Below are positions 6,501 to 26,581 of a stretch of 39,033 bases of DNA, piece after piece. How positions within the stretch are numbered: the stretch's first letter is position 1; the number at the start of each line of letters is the position of its first letter. Origin of the DNA: Candidatus Krumholzibacteriota bacterium (GTDB lineage: Bacteria > Krumholzibacteriota > Krumholzibacteriia > Krumholzibacteriales > Krumholzibacteriaceae). The notes beneath the pieces are model-generated. The model was not told the DNA's origin. It saw only the letters and a program-made list of their open reading frames with translations, and did not search any database. The DNA lies in contig JAFGCX010000004.1 in the NCBI GenBank assembly GCA_016932415.1, positions 1 to 39,033 on the forward strand. The letters run 5' to 3'. The position numbers and the translations under genes were made by a program.

Positions 6501-8490
6501 AGTTCAGGTAGAGGTTGTTATATTCTTCAAAGTAATTGTTACCGCAGACGAGATCAAGGAACCCATCGTCGTTTATATCCCCCGGCGCTATGCTTTTTGT
6601 TTCGTTACTCGGTCCTGGAAACCAAACCGGTGTTGAATTCAAGACACCTCCGTTGTTCGGGTAGATTATATTATTCCCATCATTTCCACACACAAGATCC
6701 AGGTCTCCATCTGAATCTATATCAGACAGCACGACGCTGTTTGTCGGATTATACTCCCCCACCGAATACCATGCCGGCGTCGTTTGAAAAACACCCCCGT
6801 CATTCAGGTAAAGAGTGTTGGTCTCTTCGTCGTTTCCGCAGACCAGGTCGAGATCGCCATCACCATCGATATCGCCCAGAGCCACGCTGGTTGTCTTATT
6901 ATCCGGACCCGAGACCCATATCGGTTCCTGTTGGAACATTCCTCCGTCATTCGGGTATAACGTATTGGTTTGATCATAGTTGCCGCAGACCAGGTCGAGA
7001 TCGCCGTCTGAATCAATGTCTCCCAACGCGACGCTTCTTGTGTCATAAGCAGGTCCGGAAGACCAGATCGGTTCAAGTTGAAAAACGTTTCCGTTATTCA
7101 GGTATAGCGTATTGCTCGCACCGGATTCTCCGCAGACAAGATCAAGATCTCCATCCAGGTCTATGTCCCCCAGCGCGACGCTCGATGTATTATCGCCAAA
7201 TCTTGAAGACCAGGCAGGCTCTGTCTGGATGACATTCCCATCGTTCAGGTAGAGCGTGTTATGTTCCTGACCATAGTTCCCGCACACCAGGTCGATGTCA
7301 CCGTCCGAGTCTATATCCCCGATAGCCACGCTTCTTGTGTCATTGTTTGGTCCTGAAGACCAACCCGGGCTGGTCTGAAAAATGTTCCCATCGTTCAGGT
7401 AAAGGGTGTTGAAACCACCCCGGTCATTACCACAGACGAGATCCAGGTCACCATCACCATCTATATCCCCAAGGGCTACCCATTTTGTAATATCTTCCCA
7501 CTGCGACGACCAGGCCCATTGAAAAACGCCCCCATCGTTCAGGTAAAGCTTGTTGCTGGAAGAACTTCCACTCACAAGATCCAGGTCACCATCGGAATCT
7601 ATGTCCCCGAGGGCTACACTGTACACCTGGGCGGGGCCATTTTGCCAAATCGGCTCTACCTGAAATACTCCTTCATCGTTCAGGTAAAGAACACTATATT
7701 GAGAAACACCTACGGAGGAGTGGTTCCCACAAAGGAGATCCAGGTCACCATCACCATCCATATCCCCAAAGGCTACGCTTCTTGTCTCATTGCCGGGCCC
7801 TGAAGACCATATCGGTTCCTGCTGAAAGATCCCTCCATCATTGAGGTAGATTTTGTTACTGGCGAGGGTACCACAAGCTAGGTCCAGATCGCCGTCCGAG
7901 TCTATATCTCCGAGGGCCATGCTTGTTGTTTCTCCCGTAGACCATATCTGTCCAGTCTGAAAAACTCCATCAACGTTGAGGTAGAGCGCGTTGTCATAAT
8001 ATCCGTTACATACAAGATCCAGATCACCATCCGAGTCAACGTCTCCAAGGACTATACAGTCAGCATTACGCCCGGAAGACCATGCCCGCGGTGTTTGAAA
8101 AACTCCACCGGCATTCAGAAAAAGAACGATGTGACCATAATTGTCCCGAGTCACAAGGTCCAGGTCACCATCACCATTTATATCTCCAAGGGCCAGGCAG
8201 TATGAGTGAGTCGATTCCAGCGACAATGCCGGTTCCAGATGAAAAACTCCACCCTCGTTCAGGTAGAACCTGGTGTTAACCGAGTTGCCACAAGCGAGGT
8301 CAAGGTCGCCGTCTGAGTCTATGTCCCCGAGAGCGATGCTGTATGTCCAGTTAGCCAGTTCTGAGGACCAATCCGGATAATCGGGAAAATACGATTTCTG
8401 GCACAATGCCCGTTGTGAACAGATGGATGTCAGAACGGTGATCGCCAATATGAATCCAAGGGGTTTAAATTTTATTTTAATAAATGGCAT
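3517..8490 (-). CDS. Giant secreted FG-GAP/VCBS repeat protein with type IX sorting domain
   Basis: A 1657-residue protein. Order: signal peptide (about 1-30), 14 FG-GAP/VCBS repeats (about 50-735), a linker, an ASH/HYDIN-type Ig-like domain (about 870-975, with S-L-G-D-T-A-S-V-E-L-V-I-G-N-S-G), further beta-rich segments, a domain starting G-E-Q-F-R-M-L-S-L-P-L, and a sorting domain (last 88 residues: H-P-N-P-F-N-P-S-T-V to K-K-M-V-L-L-R). Each repeat holds a D-x-D-x-D-G-D loop, which in this family binds calcium. Fourteen repeats fit two seven-bladed integrin-like propellers. It is the second gene of an operon: only 18 bases separate it from the stop of the gene before it, and a terminator follows at 3412. 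The ribosome site is weak. Role unknown; adhesion or surface scaffold is inference. Base composition is more AT-rich than the 14-26 kb block. Confidence 0.93.
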   Translation of the reverse strand: MPFIKIKFKPLGFILAITVLTSICSQRALCQKSYFPDYPDWSSELANWTYSIALGDIDSDGDLDLACGNSVNTRFYLNEGGVFHLEPALSLESTHSYCLALGDINGDGDLDLVTRDNYGHIVLFLNAGGVFQTPRAWSSGRNADCIVLGDVDSDGDLDLVCNGYYDNALYLNVDGVFQTGQIWSTGETTSMALGDIDSDGDLDLACGTLASNKIYLNDGGIFQQEPIWSSGPGNETRSVAFGDMDGDGDLDLLCGNHSSVGVSQYSVLYLNDEGVFQVEPIWQNGPAQVYSVALGDIDSDGDLDLVSGSSSSNKLYLNDGGVFQWAWSSQWEDITKWVALGDIDGDGDLDLVCGNDRGGFNTLYLNDGNIFQTSPGWSSGPNNDTRSVAIGDIDSDGDIDLVCGNYGQEHNTLYLNDGNVIQTEPAWSSRFGDNTSSVALGDIDLDGDLDLVCGESGASNTLYLNNGNVFQLEPIWSSGPAYDTRSVALGDIDSDGDLDLVCGNYDQTNTLYPNDGGMFQQEPIWVSGPDNKTTSVALGDIDGDGDLDLVCGNDEETNTLYLNDGGVFQTTPAWYSVGEYNPTNSVVLSDIDSDGDLDLVCGNDGNNIIYPNNGGVLNSTPVWFPGPSNETKSIAPGDINDDGFLDLVCGNNYFEEYNNLYLNFGGVFQAEPAWSSLRHDLTNNIALKDIDSDGDLDIVCGNNGSNTIYSGLRAPVYKGDPLFPTNHLPNNGAFLKSVAVEHIDSVSCRIHFNAIDVESDSIWIVVDYQFEGEPGWHPSSINGQTGKVGPFRTSPGGKKDSLIWDTFLVPFDSRDVILRLRTISVPNRVSIIQHIASYLIDVGPIEPFRPEISTLADSLSFETISLGDTASVELVIGNSGNKLLSVNHIDLPSSEMRLSKSAVFNLLPGQNDTMLIYVEPRLELDISGAIEITSNDPLKPNVSVQVTTDIRSLDFQTRLLNPMNDVPLGEALTINMIPGPEVNIEKGFVFYRPSDSGVAFNDSVPILLLPEGDFMAVIPGNGVTEAGLDYYIRVENSGVFAFDPRGAPADSVFHQAVQQPDQISSVPGPNRNSDFLQGRDIKVSVSLPEGTFFEQGTLYYRPGGETEYQEVEIQVGEQLPFATIPDTVPGPRGIEYWVNVRTFTRTLSDPPLTPEINPKSIRVTTTELREPLLHQGEQFRMLSLPLEIQQPLTGVITDDVGGPDNTQWRLYAYENNNNTYSELPNDILFSFEQGRGYWFITREPHQIDTDPAEGLSAPTDSSFSILLNTGYNLTGNPFAFNIAWDSIMVDTIGGTVLSMAEAEMVAVEPPVEWVPGTGYDYDVDILEPFNGFWVKNLMDKDIVLLVPPRKVPAELSANTSSNLPDPNTDDDDSSWIINIQALSQDSKDLENYIGVDPGASDGWDTHDRSDAPMPPGNNISLYFPHNSWRTHKGNYSSDIRRGYQEFRSEEYSTMKSEYKFIGLDEETIWGQLWDFDVAKNFQGETGSDEVSLNFFGTGDMPEDTEVFLIDKDLNRLVKIGNEICCYRFLLGNRRFIDQESESRFILLVGTEDFIENNDDLLPKPPTRTTLCQNHPNPFNPSTVIRYEVAKPQYVSLRIYDVNGSLVRILCDSHRQPDRYEISWNGDNDKGRQVSSGIYFCRLVAGDFAQTKKMVLLR
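6350..8343 (-). repeat. 14 tandem FG-GAP-coding units of about 142 bases
   Basis: The N-terminal half of the gene is a run of 14 in-frame units of roughly 46-53 codons. The shared core is S-V-A-L-G-D-I-D-S-D-G-D-L-D-L-V-C-G-N, followed by N-T-L-Y-L-N-D-G-G-V-F-Q and P-x-W-S-S-G. Similarity is visible at DNA level too, so recent duplication or conversion between units is likely. The last unit is the most diverged. Confidence 0.88.
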
Positions 8491-8508: not shown

Positions 8509-10959
8509 TTATCTGATCAAAACCATTTTTGTCACCGCGACATAATCCCCTGAAGTCATCCTGGCAAAGTATATACCGGAGGTTACGCGTATACCGCTAC
8601 TGTTCTTTCCGTTCCATGTCGTCTTGAATTCGCCCGCCTGAAGGTACTTGTCAACAAGAGTCGCAACGCGGCGTCCGGCCACATCATATACGACAATCCG
8701 GACCAGAGTGGATCTCGGGATTGAGAATTTCAACGTGGTGGACGGGTTAAATGGATTTGGATAATTTGCTGACAGATAGTTCGAACAGGGAAGATGCGGG
8801 TCATCTCCCGCGTCAGTTGGATCACCGAGAAGATTGATCAGAACAGAGATGTTGCCAGATCCTCTGTTCGCCACGGCGAGGTCATTGTCCCCGTCTCCGT
8901 CGAGGTCGCTGCAGCAGATTGAATATCCATAATAACCAGAAGCATAATTTTCAGTCGGCATGAATGTTCCGTCACCGTTTCCAGAAAGAATTGAAACACC
9001 GCCAAATATTTCATAGTGTTCATTGATCGTGACCGCCGCCAGGTCTTTATATCCATCCCCATCGAGGTCACCGTAACAGATGCCATAACAAAGGTCTCTT
9101 ATGTAATAATCTACAGGTGGAGCAAAAGTACAATCACCGTTGTTTAACAGGATCGAAACCTGCCAACCCGCCACTGCCAGATCATTGTCTCCGTCTCCAT
9201 CAAAGTCACTGGTGTAGATTGACTGAATATCTCCATCTGCTTCAAAGATTACGGCAGGCGCGAAGGTGCCGTCGCCTTCTCCCGGGAGAATCGAGATTTG
9301 CCAGCCTGCCGACGCCAGATCCGCATGCCCGTCTCCATTCAGATCGCTGCAGCAGATTGAACTGGAACTATAACCGACACTATAGCTCAACGCACCGCTG
9401 AATGTACCGTCTCCTGCTCCCAGAAGAATTGAGATATTGTTAGGGGCATTTAACACCGCAAGATCCGTATGCCCGTCTTCGTCAAAGTCACCCACGGTAA
9501 CAGACTTCGGAATGCCGCCCGTGGAATAGTTCACGGCAGACGCGAACGAACCGCCGCCTGATCCGATGAGAATTGAAAGATCAGATGACAGGTAGTTCGC
9601 CACTGCCAGATCCGTATCCCCGTCTTCGTCAAAGTCACCAAATGTGACAGACACCGGGCTATCGCCCGCATCATAGTTTACGGCAGATGCGAACGTACCA
9701 TCTCCATTATTCAGAAGGACTGAAACATCATCGGAATAATAGTTCGCCACGGCCAGATCATTGTCCCCATCTCCGTCAAAGTCACTATCGCAGATTGAAC
9801 TGGGACCGGCACCGGCACTATAGTCCGCAGAGGAGACAAAGGTGGCATCTCCATTATTCAGAAGAAGGGAGATGACCCTGGTGTATTTGTTCGCCACAGC
9901 CAGGTCTTTATCGTCGTCTCCGTCGAGATCAATGCTGCAGATGGAACTTGTATAATAACCAGTTCCAGGGAATACCGTTTCTTCCGCAAAAGTCCCATTT
10001 CCATTATTTAAAAAAATCGAAATATCACCTGGATCAAAATTCGTTACTGCCAGATCTTCGTCCCCATCTCCATCGAGATCACTGCTGCAGATAGAATATA
10101 TTTCTCTAAAAGTATGATCCCCATAGCCTACAGAGGGCGCAAACGTGCCATTTCCGTTATTAAGAAGAATCGAAATGTATTCGTACTCGGAAGGTCCATT
10201 CCCAACTGCCAGGTCATTGTCTCCATCTCCATCCAGGTCGCTGACGCAAAGAGAACGAGGACGGCTATCAACAGCATAGGTCAGATCATTGGCAAAAGTC
10301 CCATCACCATTGTTTAAAAGAATTGAAACGTCGTTAGAGTAATGGTTGGCCAGCGCCAGGTCAATATCGCCATCTCCGTCGAGATCGCTGCCGCAGACTG
10401 ATTGAGGTCCATCGCCGGTACTGTAGAAGACTTCAGGTGCAAACGTGCCTTCTCCGTTATTCATAAGGACTGAGACATCATCGGAATCATAATTAGCCAC
10501 AGCCAGATCATTGTCCCCGTCACCATCCAGATCCGCGCTGCAGATCGACACAGGATTATCGCCAATGCCATAGGTCACGTCATCGGCAAAGGTGCCATCT
10601 CCGTTATTTAAAAGAATTGATACGTTGTCAGAGCCGCCGTTTGTCACGGCCAGATCATTGTCGCCGTCTCCATCGAAATCACCGCTGCAGATCGCTGTAG
10701 GGTTATTTCCGGTATCATAGTTTACGGCAGGCGCGAAAAGATATTCTCCATTAATAAGGACTGATATGTTGTCATAATCACCATTTGCCAAAGCGAGGTC
10801 TTCGTCCCCATCACCATCGAGATCACTGCTGCAGATGGCAACCGGGTCGCCACCGGAAAAAACCCTTGGCGTCGCGTAAAACGATGGTTCAAATGAAAAC
10901 ACGCTGCCAGCAGGGACTACGAGAGCGAATAGAATCATTATTAATGCAGTTCTTCTCAT
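8509..10959 (-). CDS. Secreted FG-GAP/VCBS repeat protein with type IX sorting domain
   Basis: About 816 residues: signal peptide (M-R-R-T-A-L-I-M-I-L start), 14 FG-GAP/VCBS repeats, and a C-terminal sorting domain (Y-P-N-P-F-N-P-S-T-T to T-K-M-V-L-I-R). Unlike its downstream partner it has almost nothing between propellers and tail. The frame is open to an ATG at 11010, but that ATG overlaps the -10 hexamer of a good promoter, so it cannot be in the message; the ATG at 10959 starts directly with the signal peptide and follows AAGAAG. It is the first gene of a two-gene operon with the 1657-residue protein. Repeats carry D-L-D-G-D-G-D or D-F-D-E-D-G loops, the usual calcium-binding sites. Role unknown; surface display likely. 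Confidence 0.92.
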   Translation of the reverse strand: MRRTALIMILFALVVPAGSVFSFEPSFYATPRVFSGGDPVAICSSDLDGDGDEDLALANGDYDNISVLINGEYLFAPAVNYDTGNNPTAICSGDFDGDGDNDLAVTNGGSDNVSILLNNGDGTFADDVTYGIGDNPVSICSADLDGDGDNDLAVANYDSDDVSVLMNNGEGTFAPEVFYSTGDGPQSVCGSDLDGDGDIDLALANHYSNDVSILLNNGDGTFANDLTYAVDSRPRSLCVSDLDGDGDNDLAVGNGPSEYEYISILLNNGNGTFAPSVGYGDHTFREIYSICSSDLDGDGDEDLAVTNFDPGDISIFLNNGNGTFAEETVFPGTGYYTSSICSIDLDGDDDKDLAVANKYTRVISLLLNNGDATFVSSADYSAGAGPSSICDSDFDGDGDNDLAVANYYSDDVSVLLNNGDGTFASAVNYDAGDSPVSVTFGDFDEDGDTDLAVANYLSSDLSILIGSGGGSFASAVNYSTGGIPKSVTVGDFDEDGHTDLAVLNAPNNISILLGAGDGTFSGALSYSVGYSSSSICCSDLNGDGHADLASAGWQISILPGEGDGTFAPAVIFEADGDIQSIYTSDFDGDGDNDLAVAGWQVSILLNNGDCTFAPPVDYYIRDLCYGICYGDLDGDGYKDLAAVTINEHYEIFGGVSILSGNGDGTFMPTENYASGYYGYSICCSDLDGDGDNDLAVANRGSGNISVLINLLGDPTDAGDDPHLPCSNYLSANYPNPFNPSTTLKFSIPRSTLVRIVVYDVAGRRVATLVDKYLQAGEFKTTWNGKNSSGIRVTSGIYFARMTSGDYVAVTKMVLIR
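8827..10848 (-). repeat. 14 tandem FG-GAP-coding units of about 144 bases
   Basis: Fourteen units of the form S-I-C-S-S-D-L-D-G-D-G-D-N-D-L-A-V-A-N, then D-V-S-I-L-L-N-N-G-D-G-T-F-A. Units 9 and 10 replace the core by V-T-F-G-D-F-D-E-D-G, and units 11-12 are shorter by a few residues. The consensus differs clearly from that of the next gene, so the two arrays were expanded separately although the count is the same. Confidence 0.88.
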
Positions 10960-11008
10960 AAAACTTCTTTTAAAAAAAACCAATAATTCAGAAAAATACC
11001 CGAAGCGC

Positions 11009-11037
11009 ATTCTACCATAAGTTCAGGTAATTTTCAA
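11009..11037 (-). promoter_or_regulatory. Promoter of the FG-GAP operon
   Basis: On the minus strand: -35 TTGAAA (11037-11032), 17-base spacer, -10 TAGAAT (11014-11009) preceded by TGG. The -10 overlaps the furthest upstream ATG at 11010, which decides the protein start at 10959 and gives a leader of roughly 45 bases. Confidence 0.72.
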
Positions 11038-14041: not shown

Positions 14042-15745
14042 ATGCAACCCAGGCGCTTGACGACTTCATTTTTGCTTTTTGTGTCGATTGTTGCATTAAC
14101 CTTTCCCGCTCAGGCAGCATGGGTTGACAACGGAGTTCGGATCACCGAAGGGGAGAGGCCTGAATTCGAATCTCGTATAGCGCCGGATGGTGCCGGAGGC
14201 GCGTACATCGTCTGGGAACAGAGTTTCGTCAGCGCTTTTCTCAAAAACAGCATTTTTATTCAAAGGATCGACGGAACTGGAAATATCCTTTGGGGTTCCG
14301 GAGGCATATCACTCAGCCCGGATTCGACCATCGCCTGGTCGCCGGCAGACGTATCGCCTGACGGATCAGGTGGAGCGCTGGTTTGCTGGACCGATGGCCG
14401 CGATAGCGAGACCAATTCGCGGGATGTCTACGCCCAGCGCCTCGACTCGAACGGTAACCGACTCTGGGGAAGGTGGGGCGCCGAGGTCTATACGGGCTCC
14501 GAAGATCAGGATTATCCGCTTATTGTCTCAGACGGAGCGGGCGGAGCTGTGATCGTCTGGCGTGACAATCGCGATTCGAATATCGATCTTCGCGCTCAGC
14601 GCCTCGACGCGTCAGGGAGCATGCTCTGGGACCCGAGCGGTATACCTGTCTGCACGGATCTCTCAGATCAGAACCGTCAACAAATCGCAACGGATGGAAG
14701 CGGTGGCGTGATAGTCACATGGGACGATGACCGCGCTTCAAGCAACGATATATATGCACAGAGAGTAGATTTGAACGGGATCATCAAATGGGATCTTGAC
14801 GGCATACCGATCTGTGTGAGAGCCAATCAACAGACTTTTCCCCGGATCGTTTCAGACGAGACTGGTGGAGCGATCATAACATGGCAGGGATCGACTGTAT
14901 CATTGTACGCGCAGCGTGTTGATGCCGACGGAGACACCTTATGGGCTGCCAATGGCATAGTCGTCTGCTCCAATCCGTACGGATCGCGTTCCGATCCGCA
15001 GATCGCCATTGACGGAAGCGGAGGAGCGGTCCTGTGCTGGTATGATTCGCGGACACCAAGGGGAATCTATGGCCAGAGAATAGATGCTGCGGGCGATACG
15101 TTGTGGAACGGGGCCGGAGCAAAGATATGCCTGGCCGTCGGGTCGATGTCCGATCCGAGGATCGCCTCCGACGGAAGCGGAGGGGCGGCGATCGTATGGA
15201 AGGAATCTCTCAGGCAGCAGTATGACTATGGCGATGTCTATGCCCAGACCGTGGACGCGGATGGATACGCACAGGGTCCTTCCGGTGGGATCGCGGTATG
15301 CACAGCCGTCAACGAACAACGGTACGTTCATATCGCGACCGACAGCACAGGAGGCGGTATCATCACCTGGACCGACAACCGCTACCCCGCGACAAGCCAG
15401 TCTGACATATATGCAGGCAGAGCTTATTTCAACGGCTCGACGGATGCGGAGATACCGGATCTGCCCGCGGCAGGATACCTTTCGCAGAACTTTCCGAACC
15501 CGTTCAATCCCGTTACTACGATCGAATTCGGTCTGGAAAGGGATTCCCATCTCTCGCTGAGTATTTATGACGCGGCGGGAAGGATAATCAGGAAGATCGT
15601 TGACGAGGGAAGACCGGCGGGCCATTACGCCGAAGCCTGGGATGGAAAAGACGCTAACGGTAACGCGGTGGCGAGCGGCGTCTATTTTTTCAAACTGGAG
15701 ACAGAAACGCTCAAACGATCCAGAAAGATGATACTGCTTCGCTGA
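14042..15745 (+). CDS. Secreted eight-repeat beta-propeller protein with type IX sorting domain (paralogue 1)
   Basis: 567 residues: signal peptide (cleavage near A-Q-A-A), eight repeats of 50-60 residues (about 27-475) and directly a sorting domain (N-F-P-N-P-F-N-P-V-T-T-I-E-F to R-K-M-I-L-L-R). The repeat consensus is D-G-x-G-G-A-x-I-x-W-x-D-x-R, a variable turn, D-I-Y-A-Q-R-x-D-x-x-G-x-x-x-W, then x-x-G-I-x-V-C. It is the shortest of five paralogues because it has no fibronectin-III modules, so it shows the minimal form: propeller plus tail. Eight evenly spaced repeats fit one closed eight-bladed propeller. It is convergent with the next gene; five bases separate the two stop codons. Function unknown. 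Confidence 0.92.
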   Translation: MQPRRLTTSFLLFVSIVALTFPAQAAWVDNGVRITEGERPEFESRIAPDGAGGAYIVWEQSFVSAFLKNSIFIQRIDGTGNILWGSGGISLSPDSTIAWSPADVSPDGSGGALVCWTDGRDSETNSRDVYAQRLDSNGNRLWGRWGAEVYTGSEDQDYPLIVSDGAGGAVIVWRDNRDSNIDLRAQRLDASGSMLWDPSGIPVCTDLSDQNRQQIATDGSGGVIVTWDDDRASSNDIYAQRVDLNGIIKWDLDGIPICVRANQQTFPRIVSDETGGAIITWQGSTVSLYAQRVDADGDTLWAANGIVVCSNPYGSRSDPQIAIDGSGGAVLCWYDSRTPRGIYGQRIDAAGDTLWNGAGAKICLAVGSMSDPRIASDGSGGAAIVWKESLRQQYDYGDVYAQTVDADGYAQGPSGGIAVCTAVNEQRYVHIATDSTGGGIITWTDNRYPATSQSDIYAGRAYFNGSTDAEIPDLPAAGYLSQNFPNPFNPVTTIEFGLERDSHLSLSIYDAAGRIIRKIVDEGRPAGHYAEAWDGKDANGNAVASGVYFFKLETETLKRSRKMILLR

Positions 15746-15750
15746 TCAGA

Positions 15751-18141
15751 TTATCTTATCAGCACCATCCTTCTCGTCTGGTCAAGCTCCATTGAGATGA
15801 GCCGGTAGAAGTATACGCCGCTTGCGACAGGGACGCCGCGCGAATTAAGGCCGTTCCAGTGTTCGGTATAATGTCCCGCGCTCCTGTTCTCATCCAGGAC
15901 GACACTGACAAGCTTGCCGGAGATGTCATATACTTTCAGGCTTACACGCGAATCCTGCCTGAGCCCGAAGAGTATCGTGGTCGAAGGATTGAAGGGGTTC
16001 GGATAATTCTGATTGAGGTACGATAGATGAGGCAGATCGGGGAGATCCTCTCCAGTCATGTCGCCGGGGCCCGATACTGCGAAGGAGCTCTCGTTTCCGT
16101 GAATGTCGACCGCGCAGACCTTGTACCAGTAATCCTGATCCCATGACCATGCTTCATCGAACCACTCCGACACCGCCGGTGTCGCTACCAGCGTGGAAGT
16201 GCCGGGAATGAACCCTTCACTCGTGCCTCTGTGGATAGCATACCAGGCAAGATCGTTCTCCGTGTTTTTTTCCCATGTCAACTGGAGGCCTTCCGGATTG
16301 TAATCCTGTTCCGCCGCAAGCCCCATCGGTGGCTCCGGAGCGAGGTTATCGACCGAATATCCGCTGTCGGCAGCGCTCGCGTACCATACGGCGGGATCTG
16401 TAGTATGCCCTGTGACCATGTAGACCGACCACGGGATACCCGAGGTCGAGGAATCGGCAAGTGTCGAGACGCGGCAGGCGTAAGTCTCGCTCTGGGTGGC
16501 GTCAAGGCTGGCAATAAGTTCCCAGCTGCCCTCCGGAACGACTCCTCCTGCGGGTGCCCGCAGGATCGTTCTGCCGTCAGATCCCGTCATGAGGAGGACC
16601 GCGGGGCTGGAGGTTGCCGCCAATCCTTCGATCCTCTGCCAGATATCGTAACGCGAGAGCTGGAGAGGCTGATTGTTATCATCCCTGTCCGAGGCGGCGA
16701 AATTGATCCTGAGACAGCCTCCCTGGTCGCCGGGAACGTCCTCTGCCGACACTATCACCGGTTCAGGAGCCGAGGTGTCTCCCAGCGCGTCCAGGTACTG
16801 AGCGTAAACATCCTGCACCTGCCCTTCCCGGTCGTCGGTGATCGTCGCCAGTATTCCACAGGCGCCATCGGAAGCTACGTCGAAATCAAGGTTTCTCGGA
16901 TCACCCTGCAGGACTTCGACTCCATAGCTGTCCCACATCACCCCCCCTGAAATATCGACCTTCTGCGCGAAAAGAGCGCCCCCTCCGCGGTGGTCAGCCC
17001 AGACCGCGATAACACCCTCTTCGCAGGGAAGGAGCATCGGGAACTCATTCTCGTCCTCCGCGATAACCTGAATGCCGTTCGTTGTCCAGAGCCCGTTACC
17101 GAACCTGTCCAATCTCTGGGCATATATATCCTGCCCGTACTCGCGTTCGTCGCACCACGCGACGTAGACTCCTCCAGAGCCGTCTTCGATCATTGCAAGG
17201 TCATACTGGTCACCATCTTCCACGCAGACCATCTTCTCCGTTCCCCATTCGGCAGAGCCTGCCGCATCGACCTTGTTCATGTAAATATCGTGTTCACCGC
17301 CCCATTCGAACTCCCAGCAGACAAAAGCCCCGCCGAATCCGTCAGGTGCTACGACTGGTTCTTCCCGATTATAGTGACCGAGTGCCACGGGTACACCGTC
17401 AGCGATCCAGACCTCTCCCGACGCGAAGACCCTCTGCACGTAGATGTCAAGATCGAGAGAACCGAAACGCAGGCTCTGGAAAGCGACCAGGGCTCCCCCG
17501 AATCCGTCGCAGGCGAGGGATGGGTAGCCCTCGTCCGGCGAGGCGTCGGAGACGACGACATTATCCGGGGTGTCATCCCATACTATCGTCCCGTCGCGGT
17601 CTATCTTCTGGGCGTAGATACGCGACCCGCTTACGTTCTGGACCCAGGCCATGATGCATCCACCCGAACCATCCGCTACGGCGAGGATCTCTCCCATATC
17701 CCCATCGGCGACATTAATTCCGCGCGAATCCCAGAGCTTCGTTCCATCCGGGTCGATCCGCTGCGCGACGATCGTCGAACCTGATTCGAGCCAGACCAGT
17801 ATGGCGCCGCCGGCGTCATCGCTGACCATCTCGATCATTCTCTGATCGCCGGTACCACTCACCTGCACTCCTCCAGAGGTCCAGTACTCGTTCCCAGCTC
17901 CATCGAGCCGCTGCGCGAAGATCTTCCGGGGAATGACTCTCATGTCTTCCCACGCCACGATGCATCCCCCAGCTTCGTCGTATATTATCTCTACAGATTG
18001 CTGCGCCTGCCATTCGCCGCAGACCAGAATACCATCGGGGGGCCAGGCGGCGCGGAGAGGTCCGGCTGTTGCCGCAAGAGATACCGCGATGACTGTCATA
18101 AGTTTTATCTTTCGTAACAATGGATCGAAAAGAGGTGACAT
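15751..18141 (-). CDS. Secreted eight-repeat propeller, FN3 and sorting-domain protein (paralogue 2)
   Basis: 796 residues: signal peptide, eight propeller repeats (from W-P-P-D-G-I-L-V-C to the segment ending S-A-P-E-P), a first FN3-like module opening with D-V-P-G-D-Q-G-G, a linker G-Y-S-V-D-N-L-A-P-E-P-P, a second FN3 (N-T-E-N-D-L-A-W-Y-A-I-H-R and K-V-C-A-V-D-I-H-G-N-E-S) and a sorting domain (N-Y-P-N-P-F-N-P-S-T-T to R-R-M-V-L-I-R). Repeats 4 and 7 depart most from the consensus. The ATG at 18141 has AAGGAG eight bases upstream, and a TTGAAA/TAGAAT promoter lies at 18218-18246. Function unknown; export and surface attachment are inferred from the tail. Confidence 0.92.
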   Translation of the reverse strand: MSPLFDPLLRKIKLMTVIAVSLAATAGPLRAAWPPDGILVCGEWQAQQSVEIIYDEAGGCIVAWEDMRVIPRKIFAQRLDGAGNEYWTSGGVQVSGTGDQRMIEMVSDDAGGAILVWLESGSTIVAQRIDPDGTKLWDSRGINVADGDMGEILAVADGSGGCIMAWVQNVSGSRIYAQKIDRDGTIVWDDTPDNVVVSDASPDEGYPSLACDGFGGALVAFQSLRFGSLDLDIYVQRVFASGEVWIADGVPVALGHYNREEPVVAPDGFGGAFVCWEFEWGGEHDIYMNKVDAAGSAEWGTEKMVCVEDGDQYDLAMIEDGSGGVYVAWCDEREYGQDIYAQRLDRFGNGLWTTNGIQVIAEDENEFPMLLPCEEGVIAVWADHRGGGALFAQKVDISGGVMWDSYGVEVLQGDPRNLDFDVASDGACGILATITDDREGQVQDVYAQYLDALGDTSAPEPVIVSAEDVPGDQGGCLRINFAASDRDDNNQPLQLSRYDIWQRIEGLAATSSPAVLLMTGSDGRTILRAPAGGVVPEGSWELIASLDATQSETYACRVSTLADSSTSGIPWSVYMVTGHTTDPAVWYASAADSGYSVDNLAPEPPMGLAAEQDYNPEGLQLTWEKNTENDLAWYAIHRGTSEGFIPGTSTLVATPAVSEWFDEAWSWDQDYWYKVCAVDIHGNESSFAVSGPGDMTGEDLPDLPHLSYLNQNYPNPFNPSTTILFGLRQDSRVSLKVYDISGKLVSVVLDENRSAGHYTEHWNGLNSRGVPVASGVYFYRLISMELDQTRRMVLIR

Positions 18142-18217
18142 GACCGGGACTCCTTATTGCCTAAATCGCTGGATAATAATTCCTGTTCAACCGTTCCTGG
18201 ATTTTACTGTGACGGCT

Positions 18218-18246
18218 ATTCTATCACATAAAACAATTATTTTCAA
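18218..18246 (-). promoter_or_regulatory. Promoter of propeller paralogue 2
   Basis: Minus strand: TTGAAA (18246-18241), 17-base spacer, TAGAAT (18223-18218). The two hexamers are identical to those of the FG-GAP operon promoter. The leader to the ATG at 18141 is about 70 bases. Confidence 0.7.
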
Positions 18247-18473
18247 TATGGGAGCTTTAACTCATCAAGATATGCCGGATTTACCGGTTTATTTTCAGGA
18301 GATACCTGACATTTTTCGACCATTTATCCCGGTCCTCCGATAGAAACTGGTCAAATAATCCTTTTCGAAATAGTGGTCCGTATATTGCTCGGAGATGTGG
18401 CGTACCTTTGATTGGAACGGAATTTTTGAAAGGGCCGGTAACGACAGGCTGCCAGGAAACCACGGGAGAAATC

Positions 18474-19148
18474 ATGAGGAACTTTTTGCAGGCGGGATCA
18501 CTCGCGATTATCTGTATCGTATTGCTTATCACTTTCGCAGATAGCATGGCCGGCGACAAGAGTTGCCAGTCCACTGAATATGAATTGATGTCCATGCTTA
18601 TCACCAGTGAGTACGAGTCGGAATTCAGCCCTGTACTTATAAACCGTGACACAGAACTATGGTGCATTGCCGAGCGGCTCGATATCCTCCAGAAGGAATG
18701 GCCGGGACTGAAAAGCGAGACGATCGATTCTCTCATAGCGATCAACAGAGGCCCGGCCGTAAGGCTCACCGGGCAGTTCTGTATCCCCGTCGATTATAAA
18801 CTGGTATCGGAAGAAGAGTACGCCGACCTGCTTGGGCTCAGAAATATTTTCAAGGCTGGCGAAGGATCTGGAGTTGCCGGGATGGGACAGCACGCCTCGG
18901 CGGGCGATCGAGCCGAACCTGACTGGAATAATTTCGACAGGGTCTTTCCCGAGGCCCAGGGATACCTTACATTCTCAAGGATCGCCTTCGACTCCGATCG
19001 CACCCAGGCCCTGGTGATATTCTGCAACGCTTACCGGTGCAACGGAGTCAGGACAAAACCGGCGACGCGCCGGATAGCCTGTTTCATGAAAAAAGGCGGC
19101 ACCTGGAAGCTGTCCGGCATATCGCGCAGCATCAACACGATGTACTGA
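18474..19148 (+). CDS. Uncharacterised secreted or membrane-anchored protein
   Basis: About 224 residues. The frame is open from 18408, but the ATG at 18474 follows GGGAGA and starts directly with a hydrophobic segment (about residues 5-25), so it is taken as the start. No known family was recognised. The C-terminal third has the shape of a small beta-sandwich sensor or lipoprotein domain: F-S-R-I-A-F-D-S-D-R-T-Q-A-L-V, then C-F-M-K-K-G-G-T-W-K-L-S-G-I, resembling proteins in which a strand pair is followed by a G-x-W-K motif. Several Cys residues are present (in C-N-A-Y-R-C-N among others). It has no sorting tail and faces the next minus-strand gene with four bases between stops. Confidence 0.75.
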   Translation: MRNFLQAGSLAIICIVLLITFADSMAGDKSCQSTEYELMSMLITSEYESEFSPVLINRDTELWCIAERLDILQKEWPGLKSETIDSLIAINRGPAVRLTGQFCIPVDYKLVSEEEYADLLGLRNIFKAGEGSGVAGMGQHASAGDRAEPDWNNFDRVFPEAQGYLTFSRIAFDSDRTQALVIFCNAYRCNGVRTKPATRRIACFMKKGGTWKLSGISRSINTMY

Positions 19149-19152
19149 GTTC

Positions 19153-21840
19153 CTAACGCATCAGGATCATCTTCCTGGTGATCTGCTCCTTTCCCGCGGT
19201 CAGACGGTAGAAGTAGACTCCCGAAGAGACCTTGTCGCCGTTATCGCTGACACCGTTCCACCTGACGCTCTTTAACCCGGCGGTAAGTACCCCGCAGTCG
19301 AGGGCGCGGACCTTCCTGCCCGCGATGTCGAATATATCGATCGCGACATCAGTTCGGACCGGCAGATTGAAGCTTATCACCGTGGAAGGGTTGAACGGGT
19401 TGGGAAAATTCTGGAATAGCGCCAGCTCCCTTGCCGGAGTCGATACCGGTCCCGTTTCGAAAAGCACTCTCGTGCCTTCCTCGTCAGTCACCTCCACAAG
19501 GTATCGATAAGCCTTGCCCGCTTCTATTTCATTATCGACGTAAGCGAAAGCGAGGCCATCTGATTTGATCGCCGCGTCCTCGATCAGGGAGAATTCCCTG
19601 TTTCCGACAGAACGCGAGACTCGAAACTCCATGAACTCTCCAGATATTGATAATGTCCATGAGACAACTATCGATTCCGCCCCGTAAACGGCGGCGAATG
19701 ACTGAAGCTGTGTCTCCAGGATGATGCTGCCCGGGCTGAGTGTAGCCGGAGCGCCGATATTCCCGTGAATATCAACGGCGCATACCTTGTAAAAGGCACC
19801 GTCGCCGTTGGTCCATTTGGTATCGAAAACAGAGTTACCGGTTGACGTCAGGATGAGGTTGTCCCCAGCGGGAACGAATTCCTCGTCGAATGCCCTGTAA
19901 ATATTGTAGCAAGCAAGGTCGGACTCAGTGTTACGAGTCCATGAGACGAGCAGTCCCGCCGGCTCTTCCTGCTGCTCTCCCACTATACCTGCGGGAACGG
20001 CCGGTGCCAGGTTGTCGACCGAGTATCCTTCGATCGGGCCGGACATCCAGAAGATGACTGGAGTCGTCTCGTGAGCCGCGATCGCGAACTCGTGCATTCC
20101 ATCGGTAGCATCGATGGAATCATAATAGGTGGGGACCGAACAGGAGTACTCGGGAAGCATCGCTGCCTCCACATTTTCGATCCACTCCCACGCCGATGCG
20201 GCGGCTCCCGCGCCGTCTATCAGGACGGCTTTTCCGTCGTAATCGGGGCCGATATCGGCAAGCCCGACCGTTTCGTAACCACTTCCCGGAGAGAGCAGGG
20301 CGCCTTCGCTCATCTTTCTCCATACCGAGTAGTGGGAGATCAGGTAATATGGCTGGGCGTCAAGGTATGAGCGGACCCAGGTAAGCAGGACATTACCACC
20401 CTGATCGTAGGGGACATCGAGGGCCTGGACAGGTGCGGGCGCTGGATTACCCCATCGACCGTTGTTATCTATTCGCTGGGCGAAGCAGTCATGATCGATC
20501 GGCCCGAAAGCGTCGAAAGTCGCTATTACGCCGCCATCGGTCGGGACCAGGCCCCAGACGCCCTGATAATTCATCCCTTCTGTCAGCAGTATTCCGTCGC
20601 TGTCCCAGAGGAGGTCACCGTTGCCTGTCACTCTCAGCGCCCGCGCGGCCTGGTAATCGCTGCCCAGATTGAAGGTGACGATCGCTCCACCCTCTCCGTC
20701 CGGGGCCGCATGGAATCCTGAAGGTATACCGTTCGATGTTATCAGAGGAATACCATCGTCCTCCCAGACCGGATATCCGTAGTGGGTCATTCTCTGGGCA
20801 TAGATCGATATGCTGGCGTTATTATCCATCCAGATTACGATGACGCTGCCGTTTTCCGATAGCAAGAGCCGGGGCCATTGCTGGGTTCCCGGAACCCATG
20901 TGACAAACTCTCCAAAGGTCTGCCAGTTATAGTGGATCGATCCATCGCTGTCGATCCGGCTTAGCTGGATATCATAGCCGTTGGTTGCAGTACTTATCGT
21001 CCACGCGATATAAGCGCCACCTTCGCCGTCAGCGATTACGTCCGGTTCGTACTCTTCTTCTGAAGTCGAGGCTATTCCTTTTCCGTTAGCATCCCATTTG
21101 ACAGTCGCGTTCCCGTCGATATACTGAGCGTAGACGTCGTAATTTGCCGCGCTGCGGAAATCGGTCCAGGTTATCAGCAGCCCTCCCGCTCCATCACCGG
21201 CCACCACTGGAAAAGACTGTGAGTCGGTCGCGTTGCATATGGCAAACCCCGTATCGACCCAAACGCGGTTACCGGCCGCGCTGATCCTCTGCGCGAAAAT
21301 ATCCTGCCCGGTCGGCGACCCCATATAGCTGTTCGTCCAGACGATAAAGGCTCCGCCTGCTCCATCGGAGACTACCTCGGGGTTGACCTGGTGAGTATTT
21401 GATGTGCAGACCCTTACGCCGCTCTCACCCCAGAGGACAGTGCCGCTCTCGTCGATCCTCTGCGCGTACACGTGATAATCAGACCCGGCGGTATCCTGGT
21501 CCCAGACGATTATGCAGCCGCCTGCTCCATCACTGACGATATTATGGTCGAACTGGCTGAGAGTGTCGGCTCCGACTGCGATACCGGTTGCGGGCCACAG
21601 CATCTCCCCTCCGCCGTTTACCTTCTGGGCGAATATCTTGTATCTCGAAATTCCGACTGTCGATCTGAAGGCGATCACCGCTCCTCCGCTTCCATCGCTC
21701 GCCGATTTCGGGCGGAGCTGGGTCCCCCCCAGAAGACAGACAGGTGCTCCGATCTTGCTCCACTGGGCCTGGCCCTCGCCGGGGAAAAGGGATGAGATAA
21801 TAAGAACGAGCAAGATGGAAACGATGATATTCCGGGACAT
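19153..21840 (-). CDS. Secreted eight-repeat propeller with FN3 modules and sorting domain (paralogue 3)
   Basis: 895 residues, the longest of the five: signal peptide (cleavage near G-Q-A-Q), eight repeats of the D-G-x-G-G-A-x-I-x-W / A-Q-R-I-D-x-x-G type, then an FN3-like module (opening V-P-Y-D-Q-G-G-N-V-L-L-T-W), the linker G-Y-S-V-D-N-L-A-P, a second FN3 (N-T-E-S-D-L-A-C-Y-N-I-Y-R), a third one near the end (I-V-V-S-W-T-L ... Y-L-V-E-V-T-D-E-E-G) and a sorting domain (N-F-P-N-P-F-N-P-S-T-V to R-K-M-I-L-M-R). The ATG at 21840 has an AAAGGGG ribosome site. It lies 193 bases after the gene at 22034 on the same strand, so it may be the last gene of a three-gene operon; no clear promoter of its own was found. 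Confidence 0.92.
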   Translation of the reverse strand: MSRNIIVSILLVLIISSLFPGEGQAQWSKIGAPVCLLGGTQLRPKSASDGSGGAVIAFRSTVGISRYKIFAQKVNGGGEMLWPATGIAVGADTLSQFDHNIVSDGAGGCIIVWDQDTAGSDYHVYAQRIDESGTVLWGESGVRVCTSNTHQVNPEVVSDGAGGAFIVWTNSYMGSPTGQDIFAQRISAAGNRVWVDTGFAICNATDSQSFPVVAGDGAGGLLITWTDFRSAANYDVYAQYIDGNATVKWDANGKGIASTSEEEYEPDVIADGEGGAYIAWTISTATNGYDIQLSRIDSDGSIHYNWQTFGEFVTWVPGTQQWPRLLLSENGSVIVIWMDNNASISIYAQRMTHYGYPVWEDDGIPLITSNGIPSGFHAAPDGEGGAIVTFNLGSDYQAARALRVTGNGDLLWDSDGILLTEGMNYQGVWGLVPTDGGVIATFDAFGPIDHDCFAQRIDNNGRWGNPAPAPVQALDVPYDQGGNVLLTWVRSYLDAQPYYLISHYSVWRKMSEGALLSPGSGYETVGLADIGPDYDGKAVLIDGAGAAASAWEWIENVEAAMLPEYSCSVPTYYDSIDATDGMHEFAIAAHETTPVIFWMSGPIEGYSVDNLAPAVPAGIVGEQQEEPAGLLVSWTRNTESDLACYNIYRAFDEEFVPAGDNLILTSTGNSVFDTKWTNGDGAFYKVCAVDIHGNIGAPATLSPGSIILETQLQSFAAVYGAESIVVSWTLSISGEFMEFRVSRSVGNREFSLIEDAAIKSDGLAFAYVDNEIEAGKAYRYLVEVTDEEGTRVLFETGPVSTPARELALFQNFPNPFNPSTVISFNLPVRTDVAIDIFDIAGRKVRALDCGVLTAGLKSVRWNGVSDNGDKVSSGVYFYRLTAGKEQITRKMILMR

Positions 21841-22033
21841 GGCATACCCCTTTCAAAGGTGGTTCCTGGTTTTCGGTAGTGTCGGTCCTGTTGATGATTT
21901 CGCTATAAAATGGTTATCGTCCGCAAACCGGGATAGTTTACGGTAAAAATCGCGTGGTGACGAACCTCCGGCTTACAGGTATAAATTACCATCGGAAGCT
22001 CTGCCTGGGAAGGTGTGTCGTGCAGCTCTATCC

Positions 22034-24058
22034 CTATCTCAAAAGCACCATCTTCTTTGTCTCCGTGTACTCGCCGGCTGACAATTTGTAGAAGTACACT
22101 CCGCTGGCGGCCAGAACACCGCCATCGGTCCTGCCATCCCACAGCTTGTCGTGATACCCGGCGGGCATCGGTCCGTTCACCAGTTCTCGCACGAGCCGGC
22201 CCGCAGCGTCGTATATCCTCAGCGAGACGAATTCCGGAGCGTCCAGCCCGAACTTTATTATCGTGACAGGATTCATCGGGTTGGGGAAATTCTGTTCCAG
22301 ATAGGCTCCGGTCGGCATCGAAGGAGAGAGGTTGTCTACCGAGTGGCAGCTCAATGGTTGAGATGTCCACCAGAACAGGGAGCTTGAAGTCCTTGCCCTT
22401 ATCTTGAACCAGTGCGTCGCGTCGCCGAGAGCGCTCGAATCGGCGGTCGTGGAGGCCGCGTACTGGTAGGAGTCGAGGTAGTAGGCGTCCATACTGTCTA
22501 TCTGCGTGTAGGTGGCTCCGTCGGTGCTTCGCCAGATCGAATAATGCGTGACGATCTCGGTTGGATAGGCGTCAAGGTAGGAGGCATCCCAGGTAAGCAT
22601 CACGCGTCCGCCCTGGTCATTCGGGACATCCGCTGCTCCTGTGAGCATCGGCGCCGGGTAGCCCCAGTGGCCCCATTTCTCCATCCTCTGCGCGTAGACG
22701 TCGTAGTCGTTGGAATCCTCATACCTGAGGTCGTTCCATGTGATGATCGCCCCCTGCGCCCCATCGGTAGTTATCATGGCTGTCACCTGGTGATTGATCG
22801 CTCCTGATACCCTCTCGCCCTCTGTGGCCCACATTTTTGAACCGGCCGCGTCTATACGCTGCGCGTGGATGTCGTATTCGCTCCCTTGTCTCTGGTCCTT
22901 CCACGCTATTATGGCGCCGCCGACGCCGTCGGAGACGATACATGGCGTCCTCTGCCCGCCCGTGTAGTCTGATAAAGGAAGGCCGTTGGTTGTCCACTGC
23001 GCGTTACCGGAGGCGTTGACGCGCTGGGCGTAGACATGGTAATAGGCGGGTATTCTCTGATCCTGCCACGTGATTATCGCTCCGCCACCTCCGTCGGTCG
23101 TCAGATCCGGGAAATACTGACCGCCGGTCGCGGTGCATATCGATCTTCCCGAGGGGAGCCAGTATGTGTTCCCGTTGCTGAGAATGCGTTGGGAGTAGAT
23201 GTCGGTATCGACGCCGTTACGGTCGTCGTACCATACGACGATTGCTCCGCCCGAGCTGTCGGTGATCAGCTTGGGCAGGTTCTGCCACGAATTGCTGGTG
23301 CTCAGCCTGACGCCGTTAGCTGTCCACTGAACGAATCCCGTCGAGCTGACTTTCTGCGCGTAAATAAGCAGGTTGGTGGCGTCCCGGTAATCTTCCCATA
23401 CCATGGTGACGCCTCCGCTGCCATCGGCGATCATCTGTAATCCGTCCTGGACCTGGGCTGCGTTGCATACAACGAACCCGTCGGCCGCCCATTGGGTAAC
23501 GCCATTCCAGTTGATACGCTGGATGAATACGTCCTGGTTCCCGTTTCGCGAGTCCACCCAGCCGATGTACATGTATCCCGAAGTGCCGGCCGCGATGCGT
23601 GGAGCGCCCTGGTAGCTCGAATGCAGACAGACCGGCATCCCTGTGGACGCCCAAAGGATGTTTCCATCGGGGTCCACGCACTGGGCGAATATGTCATCGT
23701 TGCCATTGACATTGTCGCGATAGGCAACGACGACGTTTCCCCCATCTTTCATACAGATGACAGGGTCTCCCTGCTGGGAGGGCCCTTCAGCGACGGCGAT
23801 CCCTCCGTCGGCCCAAAGGGGGAAGCCGTACGAGTCGATCCTCTGCATATATACATCGGCATTTCCAATATTCCGGTAATCCCTCCAGACTACGTAAGCC
23901 CCGCCGGCTCCATCGGAGATCATATCAGTCACGTTCTGCATGTTGGCGAGAGCCGCGATCGGTACGCCGTCCTTAATCCACTGCGCCATGCCAGGCGAAG
24001 GCAGACCGAGCGAGAGCGCCAGGCAGAGAAGACCCGCCGCTTTGAATATCATCCTCAT
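22034..24058 (-). CDS. Secreted eight-repeat propeller with one FN3 and sorting domain (paralogue 4)
   Basis: About 674 residues. An upstream in-frame codon at 24091 exists, but the ATG at 24058 has AGGAGG seven bases upstream and opens the signal peptide (M-R-M-I-F-K-A-A-G), so it is chosen. Order: signal peptide, eight repeats ending near G-H-W-G-Y-P-A-P, one FN3-like module (D-V-P-N-D-Q-G-G-R-V-M-L-T-W ... H-Y-S-I-W-R-S), linker S-V-D-N-L-S-P and sorting domain (N-F-P-N-P-M-N-P-V-T-I to K-K-M-V-L-L-R). Note the M in place of F in N-P-F-N-P. The pseudogene at 3097-3405 has this same one-FN3 layout. Only 54 bases separate it from the gene before it, so the two are probably co-transcribed. 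Confidence 0.92.
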   Translation of the reverse strand: MRMIFKAAGLLCLALSLGLPSPGMAQWIKDGVPIAALANMQNVTDMISDGAGGAYVVWRDYRNIGNADVYMQRIDSYGFPLWADGGIAVAEGPSQQGDPVICMKDGGNVVVAYRDNVNGNDDIFAQCVDPDGNILWASTGMPVCLHSSYQGAPRIAAGTSGYMYIGWVDSRNGNQDVFIQRINWNGVTQWAADGFVVCNAAQVQDGLQMIADGSGGVTMVWEDYRDATNLLIYAQKVSSTGFVQWTANGVRLSTSNSWQNLPKLITDSSGGAIVVWYDDRNGVDTDIYSQRILSNGNTYWLPSGRSICTATGGQYFPDLTTDGGGGAIITWQDQRIPAYYHVYAQRVNASGNAQWTTNGLPLSDYTGGQRTPCIVSDGVGGAIIAWKDQRQGSEYDIHAQRIDAAGSKMWATEGERVSGAINHQVTAMITTDGAQGAIITWNDLRYEDSNDYDVYAQRMEKWGHWGYPAPMLTGAADVPNDQGGRVMLTWDASYLDAYPTEIVTHYSIWRSTDGATYTQIDSMDAYYLDSYQYAASTTADSSALGDATHWFKIRARTSSSLFWWTSQPLSCHSVDNLSPSMPTGAYLEQNFPNPMNPVTIIKFGLDAPEFVSLRIYDAAGRLVRELVNGPMPAGYHDKLWDGRTDGGVLAASGVYFYKLSAGEYTETKKMVLLR

Positions 24059-24112
24059 TGTAGATCCTCCTCTTTCAATTATCGTATTCACTCTGATATC
24101 TCCTTCAACCTG

Positions 24113-26581
24113 TTATCTCGTAAGTATCATTTTTTTCGTTTCGCTGAATGTCCCGGCGCGCAGGCGGTAAAAGTAGACTCCGCTCGCGACAGTCCTGTTT
24201 TTAGCGCTGCGCCCATCCCACGACTGCGTGTAGAGGCCAGCCTCGCGCGGTTCGTTGACGAGGGTTCGGACCAACCTACCCGAAACGTCGTAGATCGAAA
24301 GGGTCACAAGCTCACGCGAGGCGAGTCCGAATTGGATCGTCGTCGAAGGGTTGAATGGATTGGGTATGTTCTGAGTGAGATATGTCACCGCAGGGACGAC
24401 GTGAGTCTCATCACCGGTTATATCGTAAGGTCCCAGAAAAGCGGCCCCGCTCTCGTTGCCGTGGATATCGACCGTCCTGACCATATAATAGAAGCCGCTG
24501 TCCCATCGCCATTCGTCGTCGAAATATTCAGCATCGACCCCTTCATATATTCTGTTGTCAGGTCCGGTCTCGAAGTCGGGGAGCACGTCCCGGTAGAGGG
24601 CGTAATGGGAGAAATCGTCGCTGGAGGGCGCGCTCAGCCCGCCTGCGCCCCACGCGAGAAATAGCCCGGGAGGCTCGTAGCTCTGCGAGCCGGAGAATTC
24701 GGAAGGTTGAGATGGGGGGATGTTGTCAATAGAACACCCGCTGTCGGGCCTCGATTCCCAGAAGTCGAAGTGATCACTCCCATGGGCTATTACCATGAAA
24801 TAGTGCGTCCCGGGGTCGGATGGCGTGTAATCGAAGAGTGTAGATACCTGGTCGCTGTATGTAGGAGAGTTCGTTGCGTCGACATGATCAAGAAGCTCCC
24901 ATCCTGTCGCCGCGCCGCTCACCATCGAGATATAATAGATCGGCTCTGAGGCTGGCGCGTCTCCTGAGATCGTAGGGGCGGTGTCGGTATATCGGCCCAG
25001 CACCGCCGGATCGATCCCCTTTTCGCCTCTCGCGAGAAGAGCCTGGAACTGCGCGACAGGGAGCATCCGCCAGACCGAGTACTGGTCGATAACCATAGCC
25101 ATCACCGTCTCGATCCTTGATTTGTCCCAGGTGACTGTCACCTGGCCGCCCTGGTCTGAAGGCACATCAGCGACTGATGTGATCGTCGGGGAAGGATAGC
25201 CCCAGTTCCCGCACCGCTCGATGCGCTGCGCGTAGACATCGGCAGAACTTCCCGGGCGGTAGTCCTCCCAGGCGAAGATCGCGCCCCCGACGCCGTCGGA
25301 GGCGGCGCAGACGCGCACCTGATCGCTCCCCTCGGTGCAAACGGAGATTCCGTTTATATTCCACACAGGCAAGCCGTCGCCGGAGATCTTCTGGGCGTAA
25401 ATGTCACGATTCGAGCCGGAGCGATAATCCTGCCAGGCGATGACGGCGCCCAGAGCGCCATCGGCGACGATAGCCGGTTCTTTCTGAACCTGAGAGGAGG
25501 AACATACGATGGCCCCACTGTTGCTCCACTCGCGGTTTCCGAGATAACTCATTCTCTGGGCCAAGATGTCCTGGCTCAACCCCACTACCTGGGACCATGT
25601 GATGATCGCCCCGTTCCTTCCGTCCGATACGATGGCGGGCGTATACATATTTTCGACCGTCGTGCTCGCGGCGATGCCGTTTGGAGTCCAGAGGATGGTG
25701 CCGTACCTGTTGATCCTCTGGGCCCAGACTATCGGGTTCGCGCTGTTTCGATAATCAAGCCACGCGATGATGGCGCCGCCCCAGCTGTCGGCAACGATAC
25801 ACTGAGAATACTGGGTATTGACTGCGTTGCAGATGACCTTGCCGTTGGCGGTCCACATGGCAGCGCCCGATCCGTCGATCCGCTGCGCGTAGATGTCGCT
25901 CGGACCGCCGCGGTGGTCGTCCCAGGCGATAATAGCGCCGCCCACCCCGTCGGTGGCGAGGGCCGGCTCGTTCTGATCGAAAGAGGAGGTACAGACGTCG
26001 ATGCCGTCAGCCGTCCAGAGCGGCGATCCATCCTCATCGATCCTCTGAGCGAATATATCGGCCGAGCCGAAGATATCGTCTTCCCAGGCGATGATTGCGC
26101 CACCGGCTCCATCGGCGATGACAGCGTAATTAATCTGTGTCGTAGGCCAATCGCAGATCAGAATCCCGTCCTCTGTCCACTGCGCTGTTCCATCCGCGCC
26201 TATCCTCTGAGCGTAAAGATCGACATTTCCTTCGCGATCGTCGCCCCAGACCACTATCGCTCCGCCTTTACCGTCGGGTGCGATCTCCGGATAGTAATAT
26301 GTCATGTATGGTGTCTTAACCGGGACGCCGTTGACTGTCCAGAGGACGTTCCCCCAACCGTCGATTCTCTGGATATATATCCCGATGCCGGGCGCAGCGC
26401 TGCGGTTATCTTTCCAGACGAAGATCGCGCCACCAGCTTCGTCGGAGACAGCTTTGGGATGTATCTGGTCGTAAGTCTCCGAGACTATCGGCACACCGTT
26501 CTGGACCCACTGCGCGCTAAGCCCAGTCGAGATGAGAAGACCGATGAAACAGAGAATCAGAAATAGATATGATTTTCCCAT
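24113..26581 (-). CDS. Secreted eight-repeat propeller with two FN3 modules and sorting domain (paralogue 5)
   Basis: 822 residues: signal peptide (M-G-K-S-Y start, cleavage near L-S-A-Q), eight repeats from W-V-Q-N-G-V-P-I to the segment ending G-N-W-G-Y-P-S-P, FN3 (D-V-P-S-D-Q-G-G-Q-V-T-V-T-W), linker C-S-I-D-N-I-P-P, FN3 (D-F-S-H-Y-A-L-Y-R; V-D-I-H-G-N-E-S) and a sorting domain (N-I-P-N-P-F-N-P-S-T-T-I-Q-F to K-K-M-I-L-T-R). The last residues are T-R rather than L-R. It is the first gene after the promoter at 26768-26796, with a leader of about 180 bases that can fold into two hairpins. Confidence 0.93.
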   Translation of the reverse strand: MGKSYLFLILCFIGLLISTGLSAQWVQNGVPIVSETYDQIHPKAVSDEAGGAIFVWKDNRSAAPGIGIYIQRIDGWGNVLWTVNGVPVKTPYMTYYYPEIAPDGKGGAIVVWGDDREGNVDLYAQRIGADGTAQWTEDGILICDWPTTQINYAVIADGAGGAIIAWEDDIFGSADIFAQRIDEDGSPLWTADGIDVCTSSFDQNEPALATDGVGGAIIAWDDHRGGPSDIYAQRIDGSGAAMWTANGKVICNAVNTQYSQCIVADSWGGAIIAWLDYRNSANPIVWAQRINRYGTILWTPNGIAASTTVENMYTPAIVSDGRNGAIITWSQVVGLSQDILAQRMSYLGNREWSNSGAIVCSSSQVQKEPAIVADGALGAVIAWQDYRSGSNRDIYAQKISGDGLPVWNINGISVCTEGSDQVRVCAASDGVGGAIFAWEDYRPGSSADVYAQRIERCGNWGYPSPTITSVADVPSDQGGQVTVTWDKSRIETVMAMVIDQYSVWRMLPVAQFQALLARGEKGIDPAVLGRYTDTAPTISGDAPASEPIYYISMVSGAATGWELLDHVDATNSPTYSDQVSTLFDYTPSDPGTHYFMVIAHGSDHFDFWESRPDSGCSIDNIPPSQPSEFSGSQSYEPPGLFLAWGAGGLSAPSSDDFSHYALYRDVLPDFETGPDNRIYEGVDAEYFDDEWRWDSGFYYMVRTVDIHGNESGAAFLGPYDITGDETHVVPAVTYLTQNIPNPFNPSTTIQFGLASRELVTLSIYDVSGRLVRTLVNEPREAGLYTQSWDGRSAKNRTVASGVYFYRLRAGTFSETKKMILTR

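Follow-up and report, generated by a model that had tools for sequence, protein, structure and literature searches.

A predicted eight-bladed beta-propeller of near-invariant blade number in putative surface proteins of Krumholzibacteriota, other bacteria and Asgard archaea

Introduction

Five neighbouring genes, encoding the proteins here named A to E, lie on contig JAFGCX010000004.1 of a Candidatus Krumholzibacteriota bacterium (assembly GCA_016932415.1), within a stretch of 39,033 nucleotides that was analysed as a whole and is referred to below as the window. Their products are predicted to be secreted and have diverged strongly from one another, and each carries an N-terminal series of eight repeat units, which raises the question of what structure these units form and what holds their number at eight. 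A preliminary description made from the letters of the window had proposed a closed eight-bladed beta-propeller, of no named family, used as a cargo of the type IX secretion system (T9SS). Our analysis makes it quite likely that A to E are Sec-exported, T9SS-delivered surface proteins in which a closed eight-bladed velcro ring of ~440 residues, carried on FN3-like spacers, acts as a recognition scaffold.

Five paralogous proteins with eight units each

All five open reading frames are present where the preliminary description had placed them, and its count of eight units per protein was confirmed. Segmentation at the DGxGG anchor yields exactly eight units of ~54 residues in each of A to E, with spacings of 49-58 residues, and autocorrelation peaks near a lag of 51-57 residues or at double that lag. 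Eight further measurable rings encoded in the host genome also have eight units, so the count in A to E lies far beyond chance. In one of these further rings (L014) two of the eight units are degenerate and were placed by spacing; a ninth (L018) is truncated by a contig end and stands outside the count. A ninth unit suggested in E by a 2-bit match to the hidden Markov model (HMM) of the repeat falls inside a linker and is spurious, and weak Pfam matches, among them those to DUF1491, Lipoprotein_15 and Mtf2_C, were discarded as short alignments to the repeat.

The five proteins differ in what follows the ring, each ring consisting of eight units and an N-terminal closing strand. Protein A (14042..15745, forward strand, 567 residues) comprises a signal peptide, the ring (14117..15457, by segmentation and alignment) and, with no module in between, a tail of the T9SS type A or FlgD-like type (15491..15742, by profile matches). 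The other four genes are on the reverse strand, with rings delimited by segmentation, and in each of them FN3-like modules, counted on the sequence, separate the ring from the T9SS tail: one in D (22034..24091, ring at 22658..23983), two in B (15751..18141, 796 residues, ring at 16753..18048) and in E (24113..26581, 822 residues, ring at 25193..26512), and three in C (19153..21840, 895 residues, ring at 20446..21765, also delimited with AlphaFold2). Protein D has 685 residues when counted from the listed GTG, an in-frame ATG 11 codons downstream being the likelier start. With ring E as reference, the other rings show 33-39% identity, which bears out the divergence already remarked upon, as the module counts do for the differing 3' parts. 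Pfam FN3 models do not match the modules of any of the five proteins. In the full-length AlphaFold2 model of C three beta-sandwich modules and the tail extend beyond the ring, and this model pairs in Foldseek with FN3 arrays of fibronectin and receptors, as expected of an FN3 fold.

Ring structure and closure

An AlphaFold2 model of ring E, computed with 78 homologues, has a mean predicted local distance difference test score (pLDDT) of 94.4 and a predicted template modelling score (pTM) of 0.93. It contains one N-terminal strand, seven complete sets of strands a to d and a final set of strands a to c (1 + 7x4 + 3 = 32 = 8x4), a count that includes, in blade 5, a d strand of two residues, shorter than the listing limit of the tool. 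The full-length model of the divergent paralogue C likewise has eight a-b-c strand sets. Structure prediction and Foldseek had been proposed as a check, with an open solenoid or a seven-bladed ring as refuting outcomes, and the strand sets of both models fit eight blades. A search of BFVD returned generic propeller matches only.

The alignment of 171 rings suggests how the circle would be closed. Units 1 to 7 carry the fourth-strand motif W..xG in 89-96% of cases and unit 8 in 5%, and in 78% of rings the motif directly precedes unit 1, a pattern that reads as a 3+1 velcro arrangement. Since the motif is missing from the last unit and supplied by the N-terminus, closure is predicted to occur after eight blades. 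Taken with the strand count and pTM, this makes a closed eight-bladed ring well supported.

Blade number among relatives

A wide spread of repeat counts among homologues had been named as an outcome that would speak against a closed ring, and relatives were surveyed for it. The scan of named genomes comprises 80 loci, and its selection by full-length similarity favours eight; less biased sets were added, consisting of the single-contig genome G014, other few-contig genomes and a set of fourteen from other phyla, Asgard archaea among them. Distinct complete proteins whose units are strong number 182, and 165 of these show eight units in one uninterrupted run. Six more resolve to eight (E, L261, L124, L042, L162 and L143/L181). 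The extra unit in the first four of these is a spurious match of 1-3 bits, the apparent nine units of E, L261 and L124 depending on 1-2 bits. In L162 (1661-4636) and L181 (952-4278), a block of Asp-box-type repeats (YRSxDYGDTW / RTxDGGxxW) interrupts the ring, splitting a blade in the former and separating blades 2 and 3 in the latter, and the total is still eight. The eight units of L217 are spread across three frames.

Larger proteins were also found. L223/L258 have 16 units, L180 has 14 followed by a stop and two more, and L078 has 15 with the start of a sixteenth at the contig end. L044 carries 32 units as four groups of eight with ~155 residues between groups, and was excluded from the automatic count owing to a terminal masked run. 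At least 12 units precede the contig end in L036. Apparent proteins of four, two or one units in the closed genome G014 (L169, L179, L161 on the minus strand, L159) were left out of the count, since they contain runs of ~33 X residues that probably mark scaffold joins. The wide spread was thus not found: clear exceptions to eight are few (6, 7 and 10 units), and the blade count is unusually strict.

One diverged relative has an unusual architecture: L188 (1251-5195) encodes a papain-like (C1) protease domain ahead of a very diverged ring, in which eight units are seen by eye and seven by HMM, and ends in a T9SS tail.

Several points weigh against our interpretation. Departures from eight do occur: L129 (1291-3717), which belongs to the same genus, combines an N-terminal closing strand with seven units that have diverged, and is probably a real seven-unit ring, L209/L262 have six units, and L025 has seven, a stop and then three (10 in all). 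These departures all come from draft metagenome assemblies, in which similar repeats can collapse. AlphaFold tends to close propeller-like repeats, and the top Foldseek matches in the PDB reach a template modelling score of only ~0.35-0.56 to the query. The ring is known from predicted models and sequence, with closure deduced from the number of strands, the pTM and the velcro pattern rather than geometry taken from coordinates. As to its biology, the surface location, the spacer role, the binding face, the ligand class and the non-enzymatic role are all points that we infer.

Some of these observations would suit a ring of seven blades, or an open solenoid, in which eight is a coincidence of counting; L129 and the six-unit L209, from Lokiarchaeota, could be cited for it, as could the six- and seven-bladed propellers among the best PDB neighbours. 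We consider this very improbable given the 165 of 182 relatives with eight units, the multi-ring proteins with 16 or 32, the 32 strands predicted at high pTM, and a last unit devoid of the strand that the N-terminus provides, which fits only closure after eight. The closed eight-bladed propeller of the preliminary description is supported by structure prediction, velcro signature and census alike.

Common descent and constraint

The constancy of eight could in principle stem from shared ancestry alone, without any structural constraint. Of 600 random pairs of rings, 342 gave their best alignment without a shift in register, where 75 were expected, so rings are mostly inherited whole. Mean unit identity is 0.49 within a ring and 0.44 between rings, a slight excess, and clear homogenisation in a ring's own lineage, meaning that its self-similarity exceeds its similarity to the nearest relative, was detected in 5 of 171 rings. 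A test for strong independent re-amplification of blades picked out these five only. The in-register alignment and the scarcity of self-similar rings both favour an ancestral explanation.

Ancestry by itself must nevertheless account for a family that is found in Asgard archaea as well as in several bacterial phyla, at ~40% identity, for five apparently homogenised rings that still have eight units, and for multi-ring proteins that gain whole rings. Recently amplified propellers are reported to keep the preferred number of their lineage, yet to include many larger and smaller forms in a continuum of blade numbers (PMC9218822), and the 8/16/32 pattern is tighter than that found in this published survey. 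We therefore regard ancestry without constraint as unlikely. With only five homogenised rings, the constancy of eight is best attributed largely to common descent plus constraint. A family whose count is near-invariant across phyla, and whose rings are sometimes re-homogenised without losing it, provides a favourable natural experiment on the determinants of blade number.

Secretion, distribution and anchoring

The tails of all five window proteins, of the TIGR04183/FlgD_ig type, exceed the TIGR04183 cut-off of 23 bits (30.1-41.5 bits), that of E (24116..24364, reverse strand) scoring highest. The host genome encodes SprA (471 bits, cut-off 200), five C25 peptidases and 75 T9SS tails over cut-off, so that T9SS export in this host is credible and, judging from these profile matches, plausible for A to E. 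The five proteins thereby resemble type A cargo of the T9SS, whereas many ring relatives use other anchors or none: among complete rings the C-terminus is T9SS-like in 82, membrane-helix-like in 31, of another kind in 37 and without any such feature in 9.

The ring is widely distributed. Matches were found in 72 of 80 genomes of the window's phylum and, by name, among others in Krumholzibacteriota, Eisenbacteria, Latescibacterota, Bacteroidota, Ignavibacteria, Gemmatimonadota, Brocadia, other planctomycetes and Manganitrophus, and among archaea in Lokiarchaeota and Helarchaeota. One Helarchaeota genome (G081; L044, L226-L257) encodes ~30 ring proteins, the majority with a transmembrane-like helix at the C-terminus. 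Among them, 28 have one ring of exactly eight units, L249 has eight units and, more weakly, a second series, and L044 has four rings. Ring proteins of anammox planctomycetes of the Brocadia type have no tail. The assignment of the ring to a class of T9SS cargo is thus supported for the window, with its tails and the machinery in the host genome, and is too narrow for the family at large, in which the ring is a widespread putative surface module.

From this we tentatively draw a broader picture, in which our confidence falls somewhat short of even: a single family held at exactly eight blades, with extras only as whole rings (16, 32), would be common to T9SS bacteria, anammox planctomycetes and Asgard archaea, with lineage-specific anchors, and would serve as a general-purpose module for surface recognition that has passed from one domain of life to another.

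Putative function

Conservation within the unit is concentrated in the a-b turn (DGxGG), the base of the b-c hairpin (W.D.R, DIYAQR) and the c-d turn (G..W), while the b-c and d-a loops are variable. In propellers these two loops usually form the ligand face. The most likely role of the ring is that of a recognition scaffold displayed on FN3 spacers. Each protein would be exported by Sec and then delivered to the surface by the T9SS. Its N-terminal ~440 residues would fold into the closed 3+1 velcro propeller, the fourth-strand slot of blade 8 being filled by the N-terminal W..xG strand, and the FN3-like modules would serve as spacers between ring and tail. A structural role would fall to the eight-fold motifs (DGxGG turn, WxDxR...DIYAQR hairpin, G..W turn), and the variable opposite face, formed by the b-c and d-a loops, would most likely bind a glycan or protein partner that varies from paralogue to paralogue.

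An enzymatic role, for example as polysaccharide lyase or hydrolase, could be argued from the Foldseek neighbours, which include propeller lyases, glycoside hydrolases, the alkylating enzyme CylK and S9 peptidases. These structural matches are weak, and across 78 rings no position-specific set of conserved catalytic or polar residues was found; the invariant columns are throughout G, W and Q residues of the eight-fold motif, which argues against a shared active site. Enzymatic rings thus seem improbable to us, and binding scaffolds remain the preferred interpretation.

A cysteine occurs at unit position 48, in the fourth strand (GVxVC), in ~41% of blades; there are several per ring, without obvious partner.

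Neighbouring genes

Two further secreted propellers are encoded beside the ring genes. They are FG-GAP (integrin-type) proteins on the reverse strand (3517-8490 and 8509-11010), each with 13 matched stretches and a T9SS tail, and together with A to E they make up a cluster of seven secreted propeller genes spanning ~23 kb. On the forward strand, opposite to E, a short segment (3115-3345) matches the FN3-like module of E (E value 1.6e-6) and is perhaps a gene remnant. Between genes B and C, positions 18408-19148 (forward strand) encode a protein of ~222-246 residues with a signal-like N-terminus and no Pfam match.

Comparison with known propeller families

Eight-bladed propellers are a minority class, represented mainly by PQQ proteins and relatives of DPPIV. 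The fold described here is an ordinary one, and its bearers form a little-studied eight-bladed family. The neighbouring FG-GAP/VCBS proteins share its genomic setting and the T9SS tails, but differ in having an FG-GAP-type repeat, which shows no significant profile similarity to the ring unit when single units are compared with hhalign. The turn A.xD..G...W of PQQ/BamB propellers resembles the turn of the ring. These propellers also have eight blades (PMC3797127). A PQQ profile does not match the window proteins at E values up to 10, and PQQ/BamB propellers are absent from the best 50 Foldseek matches.

Kinship to the WD40-like PD40/TolB repeats (PF07676, TIGR02800) is suggestive only. TolB, which is six-bladed, ranks second in Foldseek, the hairpin SDG...(F/W).SDR.G...(D)IY is similar, and weak matches occur in 5 (PF07676) and 9 (TIGR02800) of 78 members; on the other hand, the PD40/TolB unit is shorter and the window proteins have no significant Pfam match. 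Alignment of a single unit to PD40 with hhalign gave a probability of 3.5%, and as the PD40 profile has just 31 columns this value is not evidence against kinship.

The closest named family is TIGR04275 (beta_prop_Msarc, NCBIfam), which shares the core hairpin W.D.R.G..DIY and the prediction of a propeller. It matches 76 of 78 members (best E value 9.1e-35), and the relative L026, at 100.8 bits, exceeds its cut-off of 85. The view that the ring belonged to no named family thus holds in part only. No Pfam model reaches its cut-off on the rings of A to E, and all five proteins fall below the TIGR04275 cut-off (best 40.3 bits). It might still be held that the family is simply the TIGR04275 already described, with nothing to add. 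This is rather doubtful in our opinion, since the 40 positions of that model cover strands a to c of a 54-residue unit and not the fourth strand, and since no paper on the ring family was found in PMC. The description of the ring provides domain-level annotation for a large set of surface proteins, from Asgard archaea and from Krumholzibacteriota-like bacteria, on which Pfam is silent.

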